Assembly (NCBI GenBank): GCA_016191525.1
Contig: JACPOK010000011.1
Coordinates: 1 to 64,000 of the forward strand
Direction: 5' to 3'
DNA from: Burkholderiales bacterium
GTDB lineage: Bacteria; Pseudomonadota; Gammaproteobacteria; Burkholderiales; Burkholderiaceae_C
DNA length: 64,000 bases
In this document: positions 3,296-9,144 of the stretch, piece after piece
How positions within the stretch are numbered: the first letter of the stretch is position 1
Layout: every line of letters begins with the position of its first letter
Notes under the pieces: generated by a model
Databases searched by the model: none
The model's input: only the letters and a program-made list of their open reading frames with translations
What the model was told of the DNA's origin: nothing
Position numbers and translations under genes: made by a program

Positions 3296-4327
3296 TCAGG
3301 CCGCCAGGGTTTTCGACAGCGCGACCAGCTGATCCAGCTTCTGCCGCGCGGCACCCGACTCCACGGCCGCGCGGGCCTTCGCGATGCCCTGCTTGATGTC
3401 CGGCACCACGTTCGCGGCATACAGCGCTACGCCGGCGTTGAACACCACCGTGTCCAGCGCTGCGCCGGCCTTGTTGTCCAGCACGCCCTTGAGCATGGCC
3501 ATGGACTGCTCGGGCGTGTCCACCTTCAGCGCGCGGTTGCTGGCCATGGGCAGGTCGAAATCCTCGGGATGGATTTCGTACTCGCGGATTTCGCCGTGGC
3601 GCAGCTCGCCCACCATGGTGGTGGCGCCCAGGCTCACTTCGTCCATGCCGTCGCGGCCGTAGACCACCAGCGCGTGCTCGGCCTCCAGCCGCTGCAGCGC
3701 GCGGATCTGGATGCCGACCAGGTCAGGGTGGAACACGCCCATCAGGATGTTGGGCGCGCTGGCGGGGTTGGTCAGCGGGCCCAGGATGTTGAAGATGGTG
3801 CGCACGCCGAGCTCCTTGCGGATGGGCGCCACGTTCTTCATGGCCGGATGGTGGTTGGGCGCGAACATGAAGCCGATGCCCACCTGGGCGATGCACTTGG
3901 CGATCGCGTCGGGCGGCAGGTTGATGTTCACGCCCAGCGCTTCCAGCACGTCGGCGCTGCCGCTCTTGCTGGAGACGCTGCGCCCGCCGTGCTTGCTGAC
4001 CTTGGCGCCCGCGGCGGCGGCCACGAACATCGAGCAGGTGGAAATGTTGAAGGTGTGCGAGCCGTCGCCGCCGGTGCCCACGATGTCCACCAGGTGCGTC
4101 TTGTCGGCCACGTTCACCTTGGTGGAGAACTCGCGCATCACCTGCGCGGCGGCGGTGATTTCGCCGATGGTTTCCTTCTTCACGCGCAGGCCGGTGATCA
4201 GCGCGGACATCATCACGGGCGAAAGCTCCCCGCTCATGATCTGGCGCACGATGTGCAGCATCTCGTCGTGGAAGATCTCGCGGTGCTCGATCGTGCGCTG
4301 CAGCGCTTCCTGGGGGGTGATGGGCAT
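3296..4327 (-). CDS. trpD: Anthranilate phosphoribosyltransferase
   Basis: [38 protein letters not shown]. Confidence 0.97.
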
Positions 4328-4337
4328 GAAGGTCTCC

Positions 4338-5060
4338 TTAACGGGCAGGATTGTCGGACAGGGCCAGCTTCAGGCCGAAACCAAGGAACATGAGGCCGGC
4401 GGCGCGCTCCAGCCAGAGAAATGGCGCCCCCACGTTCGGCGCTTCGTACCTCTCTGCCCCCCGAGGGGGCTCGGCCGCCTTGGGAGCGGCCCGGCGGCGG
4501 CCGGCCTCGCTGAATCGCGAGCCCAGCCAGGCCGCGGCCAGGCCCCAGCCGATGTTGACCCACAGGCCGTTGAAGTTGAACAGCAGCCCCAGCAGCAGGA
4601 AGGCCAGCGGCTTGTTCTGGATGGCGGGAGCGATGAACTGGGGCACGAAAGCCAGGAAGAACAGCGCCACCTTGGGGTTGAGCGCGTTGGTCCAGAACCC
4701 CTGGAAAAAGATGGCTTTTAGCCCTGCAGAGCGCGCCAGCTGTGCTCGGCCAGCTCCTAAATCAATAGCAGACGGCTTTTTCGACAGCAGCATGCGGATG
4801 CCCACGTACACCAGGTAGGCGGCGCCCGCCCACTTCAGCAGCGCGAACGCGGTGGCCGATGCGGCGAGCAGCGCGCTTACGCCCACGGCGGCCGCGAAGA
4901 TGTGGACGAAGCAGCCGGCCGTGATGCCAAACGCTGCGACCACGCCGGCACGGGCACCCGAACGCAAGCCATGCGTGACTATGTAGAGCACGTCCGGCCC
5001 GGGCGTGAGGTTCAGCAGCAGGCCGGCGGCGATGAACAGGAGCAGCTGGTCTATCGGCAT
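4338..5060 (-). CDS. LysE/RhtB family amino-acid exporter carrying two in-frame repeat insertions
   Basis: [41 protein letters not shown]; hydrophobic segments; repeat A and repeat B fall inside the ORF. Confidence 0.9.
4427..4497 (+). repeat. Interspersed repeat family B, copy 1 (inside lysE/rhtB)
   Basis: CCCCCACGTTCGGCGCTTCG...CTGCCCCCCGAGGGGGC...CTTGGGAGCGGCCCGGCG; shared with 6119-6180 and 13799-13863. Confidence 0.8.
4705..4769 (-). repeat. Interspersed repeat family A, copy 1 (inside lysE/rhtB, in frame)
   Basis: Reverse complement GCTATTGATTTAGGAGCTGGCCGAGCACAGCTGGCGCGCTCTGCAGGGCTAAAAGCCATCTTTTT. Confidence 0.85.
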
Positions 5061-5070
5061 GGCGCGCCCT

Positions 5071-6114
5071 TCAGGCCTTGAAGAATCCGCCGATGGCGGC
5101 GATGGCGCGGTCCACTCCGGCTTCCTGCACGTCCAGGTGCGTGGCGAAACGCAGGCGGTACAGGCCGGTCGCCAGCACGCCTTGCGAGGCCAGGTGCTTG
5201 AGCAGCGCCTTGGATTGCTCGCGCGCCGCGCCGGTCAGGTCCACGAACATGATGTTAGTCTGCGGCGTTTCCACCTGCAGGCCGTCAATGCCGCGCAGCC
5301 CGTCGGCCAGCTTTTTTGCCAGCGCATGGTCCTGCGACAGCCGCTCGACGTGGTGGTCCAGCGCATAGGAAGCCGCGGCTGCGAGCATGCCCGCCTGGCG
5401 CATGGCGCCGCCCGCCATCTTGCGCACCCGGCGCGCACGCGCGATGTACTCGCGCGAGCCGCACAGGGCCGACCCGACCGGTGCGCCCAGCCCCTTGCTG
5501 AAGCAGACCGAGACACTGTCGAAGCAGGCGGCGATGCGGCGGGCCTCTTCCATGGCGCTGGTGCCGCGCAGCGCGGCCTGCGCCACCGATGCGTTGAAAA
5601 GCCGCGCGCCGTCGAGGTGCCTGGACAGGCCCTTGTCCTTCGCGAGCGCCGTGGCCTGCTCCACGTATTCGAACGGCAACAGCTTGCCGCCCAGCGTGTT
5701 TTCCAGCGCCAGCAGGCGGGTGCGCGCGAAGTGCGGATCGTCCGGCTTGATGGCGGCCTCGATGTCGGCGAGGGCCAGCGTGCCGTCGCCCTGGTGGTTC
5801 AGCGGCTGCGGCTGCACGCTGCCGAACACCGCGGCGCCCCCGCCCTCCCATCGGTAGCAGTGCGCCATCTGGCCCACGATGTATTCGTCACCGCGCTGGC
5901 AGTGCGAGAGGATGCCGCACAGGTTGCTCTGGGTGCCCGTCGGCACGAACAGGGCCGCCTCGAAACCCAGCAGCCCCGCGATCTTTTCCTGCAGCGCGTT
6001 GACACTGGGGTCGTCGCCGAACACGTCGTCGCCCAGCGGTGCGGCCGCCATGGCCGCGCGCATGCCGGCGGTGGGCTGCGTGACGGTGTCGCTGCGAAGG
6101 TCAACCAAAGTCAT
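5071..6114 (-). CDS. ltaE: Low-specificity L-threonine aldolase (PLP-dependent beta-eliminating lyase family)
   Basis: MTLVDLRSDTVTQPTAGMR, GDDVFGDDPSVNALQ, LDGARLFNA. Confidence 0.92.
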   Translation of the reverse strand: MTLVDLRSDTVTQPTAGMRAAMAAAPLGDDVFGDDPSVNALQEKIAGLLGFEAALFVPTGTQSNLCGILSHCQRGDEYIVGQMAHCYRWEGGGAAVFGSVQPQPLNHQGDGTLALADIEAAIKPDDPHFARTRLLALENTLGGKLLPFEYVEQATALAKDKGLSRHLDGARLFNASVAQAALRGTSAMEEARRIAACFDSVSVCFSKGLGAPVGSALCGSREYIARARRVRKMAGGAMRQAGMLAAAASYALDHHVERLSQDHALAKKLADGLRGIDGLQVETPQTNIMFVDLTGAAREQSKALLKHLASQGVLATGLYRLRFATHLDVQEAGVDRAIAAIGGFFKA

Positions 6115-6118
6115 GAAG

Positions 6119-6180
6119 CCCCCACGTTTGCCGCCAAGGCGGCTGCACTGCCCCCCGAGGGGGCGCTAGCTTGCTTGAAG
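6119..6180 (+). repeat. Interspersed repeat family B, copy 2 (fills trpG-ltaE intergenic gap)
   Basis: CCCCCACGTTTGCCGCCAAGGCGGCTGCACTGCCCCCCGAGGGGGCGCTAGCTTGCTTG. Confidence 0.75.
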
Positions 6181-6196
6181 CGGTTCTGCGCTGCGC

Positions 6197-6769
6197 TCAT
6201 CGCCGCTCCTCCAGGAAGTTCTTCAGCATGGCATGGCCGTGTTCGGTGAGGATGGATTCCGGATGGAACTGCACGCCTTCGACGGCCAGCTCGCTGTGGC
6301 GCACGCCCATGATCTCGCCGTCGTCCGTCCATGCGGTGGTGACCAGCTCTTTGGGGCAGGACTCTTTCTCGATCCCCAGCGAGTGGTAGCGATTGACGGT
6401 GAACTGCTCGGGCAGCCCGGCAAAGACGCCCTGGCGCGTTGTGGTGATCACGCTGGTCTTGCCGTGCATCAGCTGCCGTGCGCGGATGATCTTGCCGCCG
6501 AAGGCCGCGCCTATGCTCTGGTGGCCCAGGCACACGCCCAGCACGGGCAGTTTGCCCGCGAAGTGGCGGATGGCTTCGACCGAGATGCCGGCTTCGGCCG
6601 GCGAGCAGGGGCCGGGCGAAACCACCAGCCGGTCGGGCTTGCGCGCCGCGATACCCGCCACCGTGATCTCGTCGTTGCGGAACACTTCCACCTGCGCGCC
6701 CAGCTCGCCGAAGTACTGCACCAGGTTGTAGGTGAAGCTGTCGTAGTTGTCGATCATGAGGAGTTTCAT
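6197..6769 (-). CDS. trpG: Anthranilate synthase component II (glutamine amidotransferase)
   Basis: [38 protein letters not shown]. Confidence 0.96.
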
Positions 6770-6772
6770 GGC

Positions 6773-8272
6773 TTACTCCAGGCCTTCTTCAACCAGTTCG
6801 CAGGCGCGCAGCAGGGCGCGCGCCTTGGCTTCCGTCTCTTTCCATTCCAGCTCGGGCACCGAGTCGGCAACGATTCCCGCGGCCGCCTGCACGTACAGCA
6901 CCTGGTCCTTGATGATGCCGGTACGGATGGCGATGGCCACATCCATGTCGCCCGCGTAGCTGAGGTAGCCGCAGGCGCCGCCGTAGATGCCGCGCTTGGT
7001 CGGCTCCAGCTGGTCGATCAGCTCCATGGCGTGCACCTTGGGCGCGCCGGTCAGCGTGCCGGCGGGGAAGGTGGCGCGCAGCACGTCGATGCTGGTCATG
7101 CCGTCGTTGAGGATGCCCTCCACGTTGCTCACGATGTGCATCACGTGGCTGTAGCGCTCCACCGCGAACTGCTCCGTCACCTTGACTGTGCCGGTCTTGG
7201 CAATGCGGCCGATGTCGTTGCGGGCCAGGTCGATCAGCATCACGTGCTCGGCGCGCTCCTTGGGGTCGTTCACCAGTTCATGCTCCACCGCCTTGTCGAT
7301 CTCCGGCGTGGCGCCGCGCGCGCGGGTGCCGGCCAGCGGGCGGATGGTGATTTTCTGGCCTTCGGGAGTCTGCTCCTGGCGCACCAGGATTTCGGGCGAG
7401 GCGCCCACCACATGGAAATCGCCCAGGTGGTAGTAATACATGTAGGGGCTGGGGTTGAGCGAGCGCAGCGCGCGGTACAGCGACAGCGGCGACTCGGTGT
7501 AGCGCTTCTTGATGCGCTGGCCCACCTGCACCTGCATGAAGTCGCCGGCGGCGATCAGCTCCTTGGACTTTTCCACAGCGGCGATGTAGTCGGCCTTGGC
7601 GAAGTCGCGCTCCGCTGGAAAGGTCTGCGACTGCCTGACCACCGGCGCGCTCACCGAGTACTTCAGCTGCTCGCGCAGTTCGCGCAGCCGCTTCTTGGCG
7701 TTGCTGTAGGCCTCGGGCTGCACCGGGTCGGCGTAGACGATGAGGTACAGCTTGCCCGAGAGGTTGTCGATGACGGCCAGTTCCTCGCATTGCAGCAGCA
7801 GGATGTCGGGGCAGCCCAGCGTGTCGGGCGGGCAGCTCTTTTCCAGCTTCTTCTCGATGTGGCGCACCGTGTCGTAGCCGAAGTAGCCGGCCAGGCCGCC
7901 GCAAAAGCGCGGCAGCCCCGGGCGCAGCGCCACCTTGAAGCGCTTCTGGTAGGCCGCCACGAAGTCCAGCGGGTTGCCGTGGGCGGACTCCACCACCTTG
8001 CCGTCGGTCACGATTTCGGTCACGGCGTCGGCGCCGAAGCCGCGCGCCTGCAGCAGCGTGCGCGCCGGCAGGCCGATGAAGCTGTAGCGGCCGAAGCGCT
8101 CGCCGCCCACCACGGACTCCAGCAGGAAGCTGAACTTGCCGCCGTCCCGGGAATGGGCCAGCTTCAGGTACAGCGACAACGGGGTTTCGAGGTCCGCGAA
8201 TGCTTCCGCCATCAGCGGAATGCGGTTGTAGCCCTGCAGCGCAAGGCTTTTGAATTCGAGTTCGGTAATCAA
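6773..8272 (-). CDS. trpE: Anthranilate synthase component I
   Basis: TTG start with upstream GGAGG; SPEILVR, RPLAGTRARG, LTGAPKVHAMELID. Confidence 0.96.
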   Translation of the reverse strand: MITELEFKSLALQGYNRIPLMAEAFADLETPLSLYLKLAHSRDGGKFSFLLESVVGGERFGRYSFIGLPARTLLQARGFGADAVTEIVTDGKVVESAHGNPLDFVAAYQKRFKVALRPGLPRFCGGLAGYFGYDTVRHIEKKLEKSCPPDTLGCPDILLLQCEELAVIDNLSGKLYLIVYADPVQPEAYSNAKKRLRELREQLKYSVSAPVVRQSQTFPAERDFAKADYIAAVEKSKELIAAGDFMQVQVGQRIKKRYTESPLSLYRALRSLNPSPYMYYYHLGDFHVVGASPEILVRQEQTPEGQKITIRPLAGTRARGATPEIDKAVEHELVNDPKERAEHVMLIDLARNDIGRIAKTGTVKVTEQFAVERYSHVMHIVSNVEGILNDGMTSIDVLRATFPAGTLTGAPKVHAMELIDQLEPTKRGIYGGACGYLSYAGDMDVAIAIRTGIIKDQVLYVQAAAGIVADSVPELEWKETEAKARALLRACELVEEGLE

Positions 8273-8364
8273 GGGGGAGCCTCCACAAGCCCGGCAGCAC
8301 TCGCTGCCATGTTCATCCAGGGTGCCTCAAGGTGAGGCGCGGGGGCACGGGCTGCCCCGTGCAA

Positions 8365-8448
8365 TCAGCAACGCACGAACAGTGGCTTGCGCCAGGGCCA
8401 GGCTCCCCGGCCGGCGAGGCCCGTGGTGGAGGTGCGGTGAATGAACAT
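8365..8448 (-). CDS. trpL: Candidate trp leader peptide MFIHRTSTTGLAGRGAWPWRKPLFVRC
   Basis: 27-codon ORF ending 93 nt upstream of trpE, containing TGG CCC TGG, followed by GC hairpins; candidate only. Confidence 0.6.
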   Translation of the reverse strand: MFIHRTSTTGLAGRGAWPWRKPLFVRC

Positions 8449-8529
8449 GGGCCAAAGTGTAGCAAACGATGGTTTGACACAGCGAAAACCCTGTTGCCCG
8501 GACGCATCAAATCCTTAAAAATCAAAAAC

Positions 8530-8559: not shown

Positions 8560-9144
8560 ATGAAGCTGATCAAGCAATGGGTTGTTGTTGCCGCCGCCGT
8601 GCTGCTGGCCGGCAGCGCCGCCGCCGACATGTTGGTGTCGGGCGTGAAGTACGAAGACGCAGCCGACGTGCGCGGCACCAAGGTGCAGCTCAACGGCGCC
8701 GGTGTCCGCTACAAGGCAGTGTTCAAGGTGTACACGGCGGGGCTGTACCTGCCGAAGAAGGCTTCTACCCCCGACGAGGTGCTGGCAATGCCCGGCGCCA
8801 AGCGCATGAACATCGTGATGCTGCGCGAAATCGATTCCTCCGAGCTGGGCAAGCTGTTCTCGCGCGGCATCGAGGACAACATGGACAAGGCGGCTTTTTC
8901 CAAGCTGATCCCCGGTGTGATGCGCATGAGCCAGATCTTCACCGACTTCAAGAAGCTCTCGCCCAACGACAGCTTTCAGATCGACTGGATCCCCGGCACC
9001 GGCACCATCATCACGGTGCAGGGCAAGCCCCAGGGCGAGCCCTTCAAGGAGCCCGAGTTCTTCAACGCGCTGCTGCGCATCTGGCTGGGCCCCAACCCGG
9101 CCGACTGGAAGCTGAAGGACGCGCTGCTGGGCAAGGCCGCCTAG
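8560..9144 (+). CDS. Chalcone isomerase-like domain protein, secreted
   Basis: Signal peptide MKLIKQWVVVAAAVLLAGSAAA; GVRYKAVFKVYTAGLYLPKK. Confidence 0.85.
   Translation: MKLIKQWVVVAAAVLLAGSAAADMLVSGVKYEDAADVRGTKVQLNGAGVRYKAVFKVYTAGLYLPKKASTPDEVLAMPGAKRMNIVMLREIDSSELGKLFSRGIEDNMDKAAFSKLIPGVMRMSQIFTDFKKLSPNDSFQIDWIPGTGTIITVQGKPQGEPFKEPEFFNALLRIWLGPNPADWKLKDALLGKAA

Follow-up and report, generated by a model that had tools for sequence, protein, structure and literature searches.

The window, by which we mean the whole 64,000-nt stretch of DNA analysed here, carries trpE at the head of a minus-strand gene order (3296-8272) that continues with trpG, a threonine-aldolase-like PLP enzyme (5071-6114), a LysE/RhtB-type exporter (4338-5060) and trpD, two genes of other function being placed between trpG and trpD. 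A divergent plus-strand gene (8560-9144, MKLIKQWVVVAAAVLL...), which looks like a secreted chalcone-isomerase-type protein and has no NCBIfam match, has a short intergenic stretch in common with the trp leader promoter, and three tRNA genes stand in a row at 185-536 on the minus strand. Directly upstream of trpE, and separated from its TTG start (8272) by 92 nt, lies a 27-codon ORF that ends with a TGA stop (8367-8365) and includes the triplets TGG CCC TGG, whose two Trp codons are W17 (8400-8398) and W19 (8394-8392). The original prediction had read this arrangement as a candidate trp attenuator, naming the leader ORF, the TTG start, a TACACT hexamer 7 nt before the ATG and the hairpins H2, H2b and H3; every one of these elements was recovered on reading the sequence (Table 1), while the long-range helix P1, the Shine-Dalgarno hairpin H4 and the terminators of related families had been missed.

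Table 1. Coordinates of the elements of the trpE leader region and of the gene it would control, numbered along the window
Feature	Positions	Strand	Sequence and remarks
-10 element	8456..8461	-	TACACT; last base 7 nt before leader ATG
P1 5' strand (putative)	8438..8450	-	CCATGTTCATTCA; covers leader start codon; pairing tests against shuffles and permutations
Leader ORF, trpL-like	8365..8448	-	MFIHRTSTTGLAGRGAWPWRKPLFVRC; stop codon included; sequence reading and comparison with relatives
Core (RGAWPWR)	8390..8409	-	CGGGGAGCCTGGCCCTGGCG; two Trp codons, nucleotide-level constraint; may fold as hairpin P3
Hairpin H2	8345..8362	-	GCACGGG-GCAG-CCCGTGC; just past leader stop
Hairpin H2b	8324..8338	-	GCCTCA-CCT-TGAGGC; upstream of P1 3' strand; site of Burkholderiaceae terminator hairpin
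P1 3' strand (putative)	8307..8319	-	TGGATGAACATGG; family motif GAATGAAC; same position as Burkholderiaceae U-tract; pairing tests against shuffles and permutations
Hairpin H3	8293..8308	-	GGCAGC-GAGT-GCTGCC; directly past P1
Hairpin H4	8277..8292	-	GGGC-TTGTGGAG-GCTC; contains trpE Shine-Dalgarno GGAGG (8284-8280)
trpE, anthranilate synthase component I	6773..8272	-	TTG start; controlled gene; TIGR00564, 533 bits, over cut-off

General-purpose models say little about this region. Rfam covariance models, including any for a trp leader, gave matches at chance level only, and the leader peptide matched no Pfam or NCBIfam profile up to E 10, although so short a query (27 residues) has little power in such a search. 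Because scanning the window found no scored -35/-10 sigma-70 promoter pair, the promoter call rests on the conserved -10 element and its spacing. Likewise, the scan found no intrinsic terminator, i.e., a hairpin followed by a U-tract, before trpE in the window.

Related trpE loci were compared from named genomes of Ramlibacter, Caenimonas, Hydrogenophaga, Variovorax, Acidovorax, Polaromonas, Rhodoferax and others, mostly Comamonadaceae. Searched at the DNA level, about three quarters of the family's genomes (220 of 299) matched the leader, and the motif [GE]AW.WR served to gather 163 distinct leader-trpE regions. All 163 have both Trp codons of [G/E]AWxWR, and all of these leaders lie upstream of trpE; since that very motif selected the regions, the Trp codons are not independent evidence, whereas the leaders' placement before trpE, the remainder of the peptide and the spacing are. 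The peptide is indeed conserved beyond its Trp residues (MFIHR..TG..DRGAWPWR). Among 161 relatives the -10 element is TACACT in 135 and TAAACT in 21, and it precedes the leader ATG by 6-11 nt in 155, which suggests a leaderless mRNA; for the window itself, the same spacing predicts that the mRNA may begin at or near the leader AUG. Conservation of the leader ORF and its Trp codons, put forward in the original prediction as a check, is thus what the relatives display, and the start at the AUG suggested there gains support from the -10 spacing. In Polynucleobacter and several distant MAGs, the 700 nt upstream of trpE contain no such Trp-rich ORF. Weak trpE start codons are the rule among the 163 relatives (GTG 119, ATG 24, TTG 20).

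Constraint on the core reaches the choice of codons. Across the 163 regions, CGG is kept in 151 and GGA in 149, codons that account for 6% of Arg and 3% of Gly usage, respectively, together with GCC in 144 (56% of Ala) and CCC in 141 (21% of Pro), while further upstream GGT is kept in 108 (11% usage) and ACA in 72 (3%); GGC and CCG are not among the commonest variants of the core. Judged from these frequencies, the core codons are under selection beyond the peptide sequence. One candidate object of that selection is the hairpin P3, CCGGGG-AGCCUGG-CCCUGG, with W17 in its loop and W19 in its 3' strand, in which 98.6% of cells are paired over 194 distinct sequences and nearly all variants pair through G-U or A-U. 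Because the core is almost invariant, P3 lacks proof by covariation, and its pairing does not exceed that of shuffles. Local arm stability was rejected as the cause of the constraint, synonymous recodings being more stable than the native arms. A helix P2 around the core (ACAGGT with AAGCCTGT) was also rejected, as it pairs no better than shuffles.

Pacing of the ribosome by minor codons would be an equally good reason for the codon constraint. According to this explanation CGG, GGA and CCC slow the ribosome near the Trp codons and P3 is incidental, a part of the mechanism that would fit within ribosome-mediated attenuation. It accords with the minor character of the core codons, with the scarcity of GGC and CCG among the common variants and with the behavior of P3 in the shuffles, which is what a core that hardly varies would give, and biased codon use is familiar from attenuator leaders (PMC1183508). 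Against it, the same codons recur at the distance of other families and nearly all variants preserve the pairing of P3. We regard pacing with an incidental P3 as a serious candidate that falls somewhat short of an even chance.

The second conserved feature joins the beginning of the leader to its end. In the window, P1 would consist of 13 bp formed by the region of the leader start codon with a stretch downstream of the leader stop. Although the gap from the leader stop to trpE varies, it repeatedly contains GAATGAAC, as an exact 8-mer in 49 of the 163 regions, and this motif is complementary to GTTCATTC at the leader 5' end. Pairing of the leader 5' end with the gap scores 17.7, against 15.0 in dinucleotide shuffles, and the other parts of the leader pair with the gap no better than such shuffles do. 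When leaders were permuted among gaps, the score of 16.1 for each leader with its own gap fell to 14.8 (sd 0.2) and none of 2000 permutations reached it, in a comparison that is uncorrected for kinship; positions outside the anchor motif also pair more than in the permuted set (P 0.013). P1 has more than 4 expected base pairs in 70 of 161 relatives, which means that it is clear in under half, and several close relatives whose leaders have TTCATCC show it weakly. The motif was also considered as a second small ORF or an alternative trpE start and rejected as either, since its reading frame varies among relatives, with counts of 33, 26 and 13 for the three possibilities. Taken together with the leaders of a second family, described below, we consider it likely that P1 is real and functional.

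The exact 20-nt core is also found upstream of trpE in Burkholderiaceae, a family name that was inferred from the trpE context and the leader, where DNA similarity detected the leader in 104 of 150 genomes. These leaders read MFLNKKRSLSSIDRGAWPWRRWSR; next come a hairpin, CCG and a U-tract. Their 5' region, AACAAAAAACGG, has its complement in CCGTTTTTTGTT, which is the U-tract itself, and the best helix scores 25.1, compared to 15.5 in shuffles. This P1 is unrelated in sequence to that of the window's family, being of the AAAAACGG:CCGTTTTT types, and it covaries, with A-T/G-C exchanges at two positions and C-G/T-A at another; 302 of 333 cells are paired, and at most 297 were in 5000 permutations. 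By comparison of sequences, then, P1 is common to two families that build it differently. Two further leaders (L262 and L263, from genomes G688 and G704) have GCAAACGC(AT) paired with (AT)GCGTTTGC right past the stop, a P1-like partner that, unlike that of other leaders, sits within reach of a terminating ribosome, which would cover it. Alcaligenaceae-type trpE loci present a core of the A[YW]WRWWR type and hairpins followed by U6-7. Three leaders from another family of the order (L213, L214 and L215) are shorter, end in VWSAAPGAWPWRS and have nearly the same core DNA, and the core therefore reaches a further family.

Intrinsic terminators are, by contrast with these families, nearly absent from that of the window: a hairpin with a U-run was found in 16 of 161 regions, and in 5 of the reverse-complement control, so that the lack of a U-tract terminator remarked on in the window holds for the whole clade. 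Because the U-tract is present in two other families, we infer that it was lost in the window's family rather than never gained. The gap folds better than dinucleotide shuffles (MFE, mean z -1.41 over 160 sequences, 92% below zero), compared to -0.01 for the adjacent trpE coding sequence used as a control, and the stretches flanking the P1 motif do so too, with a mean z of -1.14 for the 32 nt upstream and -1.29 for the 34 nt after it. H2, H2b, H3 and H4 recur in close relatives of the window, the stem of H2b differing among them (GCCTGA/TCAGGC, GCCTCG/CGAGGC, GTCCCGG/CCGGGAC and GCCTCCGG/CCGGAGGC), and in 38 of 47 relatives GGAGG is followed by CTC, for which a GAGC or GGGC normally lies upstream to complete H4. 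The gap is also rich in C (0.388 C, 0.308 G), while the sequence before the promoter shows no such richness (0.284 C, 0.326 G). This excess of C over G is mild and compatible with Rho without proving it.

The best explanation of the whole, and in our judgment a probable one, is a ribosome-mediated, Trp-sensing attenuator of trpE. Control of trpE by Trp sensing through the leader peptide is its firmest part and may be held with high confidence, the attenuator reading being strongly supported, at the level of sequence comparison, by the conservation of the leader and the constraint on its codons. Transcription would begin at, or a few nucleotides before, the leader AUG, as the -10 spacing indicates, and the first ribosome would start on a leaderless mRNA. 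When charged tRNA-Trp is scarce, that ribosome would be expected to stall at W17 or W19, given the conserved UGG codons, and in doing so to mask the constrained core and block the compact fold of the leader, so that transcription runs into trpE. When Trp is plentiful, it would reach the stop and leave, and the RNA could then close through P1 around H2 and H2b. Once closed, the leader would cut expression at the end of the domain, where a hairpin and a U-tract are seen in the Burkholderiaceae sequences; in the window's family termination would have to proceed without a U-tract, probably by Rho, with H4 at the Shine-Dalgarno as a possible second, translational layer. A formed P1 would hide the leader AUG and may thereby cap leader translation at about one ribosome per transcript. 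We propose tentatively, as a history that we would not quite expect to hold in full, that the terminator was lost lineage-wide, that after one round of leader translation P1 folds the leader shut, and that its 3' strand is now the site where control is exerted through Rho or through trpE translation. As the main output in the window's family we prefer termination, lacking a U-tract, to translational control, at roughly even odds against the alternatives combined.

Folding at equilibrium, with a masked ribosome placed at W17, at W19 or at the stop, gave no general switch, either in access to the Shine-Dalgarno (about +0.03) or in P1. These folds bear most directly on translational attenuation, by which a stalled ribosome keeps the core, GGGGAGCCU, off AGGCUCCCC at the trpE Shine-Dalgarno and lets trpE be translated, while otherwise the core or H4 hides that site. 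Two folds compete in the window (8448-8260), the minimum-energy one with the core on the Shine-Dalgarno region, to which it is complementary over 9 bp, and the centroid with P1. Among relatives the complementarity of the core to the Shine-Dalgarno window lies above that of shuffles (cluster mean +0.40, sem 0.12), as is not the case for other windows of the gap; H4 is conserved around the site where the latter is GGAGGCTC; and mean accessibility is slightly higher masked at W17 than at the stop (0.439 vs 0.410, a difference of 0.029, sem 0.008). However, more than 2 expected core:Shine-Dalgarno pairs occur in only 18 of 161 relatives, a rarity for which this pairing was rejected as a general switch, access in the window does not open on stalling (0.42 free, 0.32 at W17, 0.43 at W19), and H4 alone explains the conservation of GGCTC, so that the complementarity may be partly or wholly due to H4. 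Translational attenuation is, in our view, rather unlikely. Among the mechanisms that the original prediction had left open, then, the translational one drew weak thermodynamic support and the Rho-dependent one is compatible with the base composition, none being proven.

The trans-acting option among them would have the leader mainly produce an sRNA and/or a peptide for other targets, with trpE control secondary. Conservation of the peptide beyond its Trp residues and a leaderless small mRNA would suit it, and S. meliloti provides a precedent in rnTrpL and peTrpL (PMC7298713). Every collected leader, however, lies upstream of trpE, the core occurs once in the genome at up to 2 mismatches (no other match has fewer than 3), the constraint acts on codons and not on the peptide alone, and no terminator is seen in the window to give a defined sRNA; we judge this option improbable. 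That a chance ORF and functionless GC-rich hairpins would account for the locus, as many short ORFs and hairpins are expected in GC-rich DNA, is refuted by the family-wide conservation, the codon constraint, the motif-spaced -10 element and the homologous leaders with terminators in other families, and can be dismissed.

Attenuation of trpE by a ribosome that senses Trp is known as a kind; the leader family, P1 and the terminator-less form are new to us. A comparative survey of proteobacterial attenuators was reportedly made by Vitreschak and colleagues in 2004, and the leader may have been predicted earlier in some beta-proteobacteria. The open literature searched held no description on point of beta-proteobacterial trp attenuators. 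To our knowledge, a long-range helix from the start-codon region to the end of the leader does not belong to the classical attenuation model; P1, which includes the leader start region and is conserved with different sequence in two families, would stand outside that textbook scheme.

Like the E. coli trpL type, the locus has a short ORF with Trp codons directly upstream of trpE and structured RNA between the two, from which it differs in the Pro between the two Trp codons, an apparently leaderless mRNA, the family's lack of a U-tract terminator and the P1 helix. With the trpL/rnTrpL/peTrpL system of S. meliloti it shares a predicted RNA start at the leader AUG, a leader before trpE and a conserved peptide, although the peptides are unrelated, the rhizobial one having 14 aa with consecutive Trp codons and the present one reading MFIHR..RGAWPWR, and although in rhizobia the attenuator includes a terminator and gives rise to a defined sRNA (PMC7298713), neither of which is predicted here. 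Leader peptides without a clear terminator have been predicted upstream of amino-acid genes for some actinobacterial operons, and classical attenuators with terminators for the trp operons of Corynebacterium and Streptomyces (PMC1262725); the likeness to the former is the lack of an obvious terminator, the sequences being unrelated. The leaders of Alcaligenaceae also precede trpE and differ in their core type, and those of Burkholderiaceae share trpE downstream, P1 and, almost letter for letter in DNA, the DRGAWPWR core; both have the hairpin and U-tract, which in Burkholderiaceae is the 3' strand of P1. The locus gives Comamonadaceae a concrete and testable candidate element for the control of trpE, linked by homology to the Burkholderiaceae leaders, in which terminators persist. 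Since the sensing part (leader peptide, codons and start-region helix) is retained here without the terminator, the comparison offers a direct route to studying the exchange of expression platforms.
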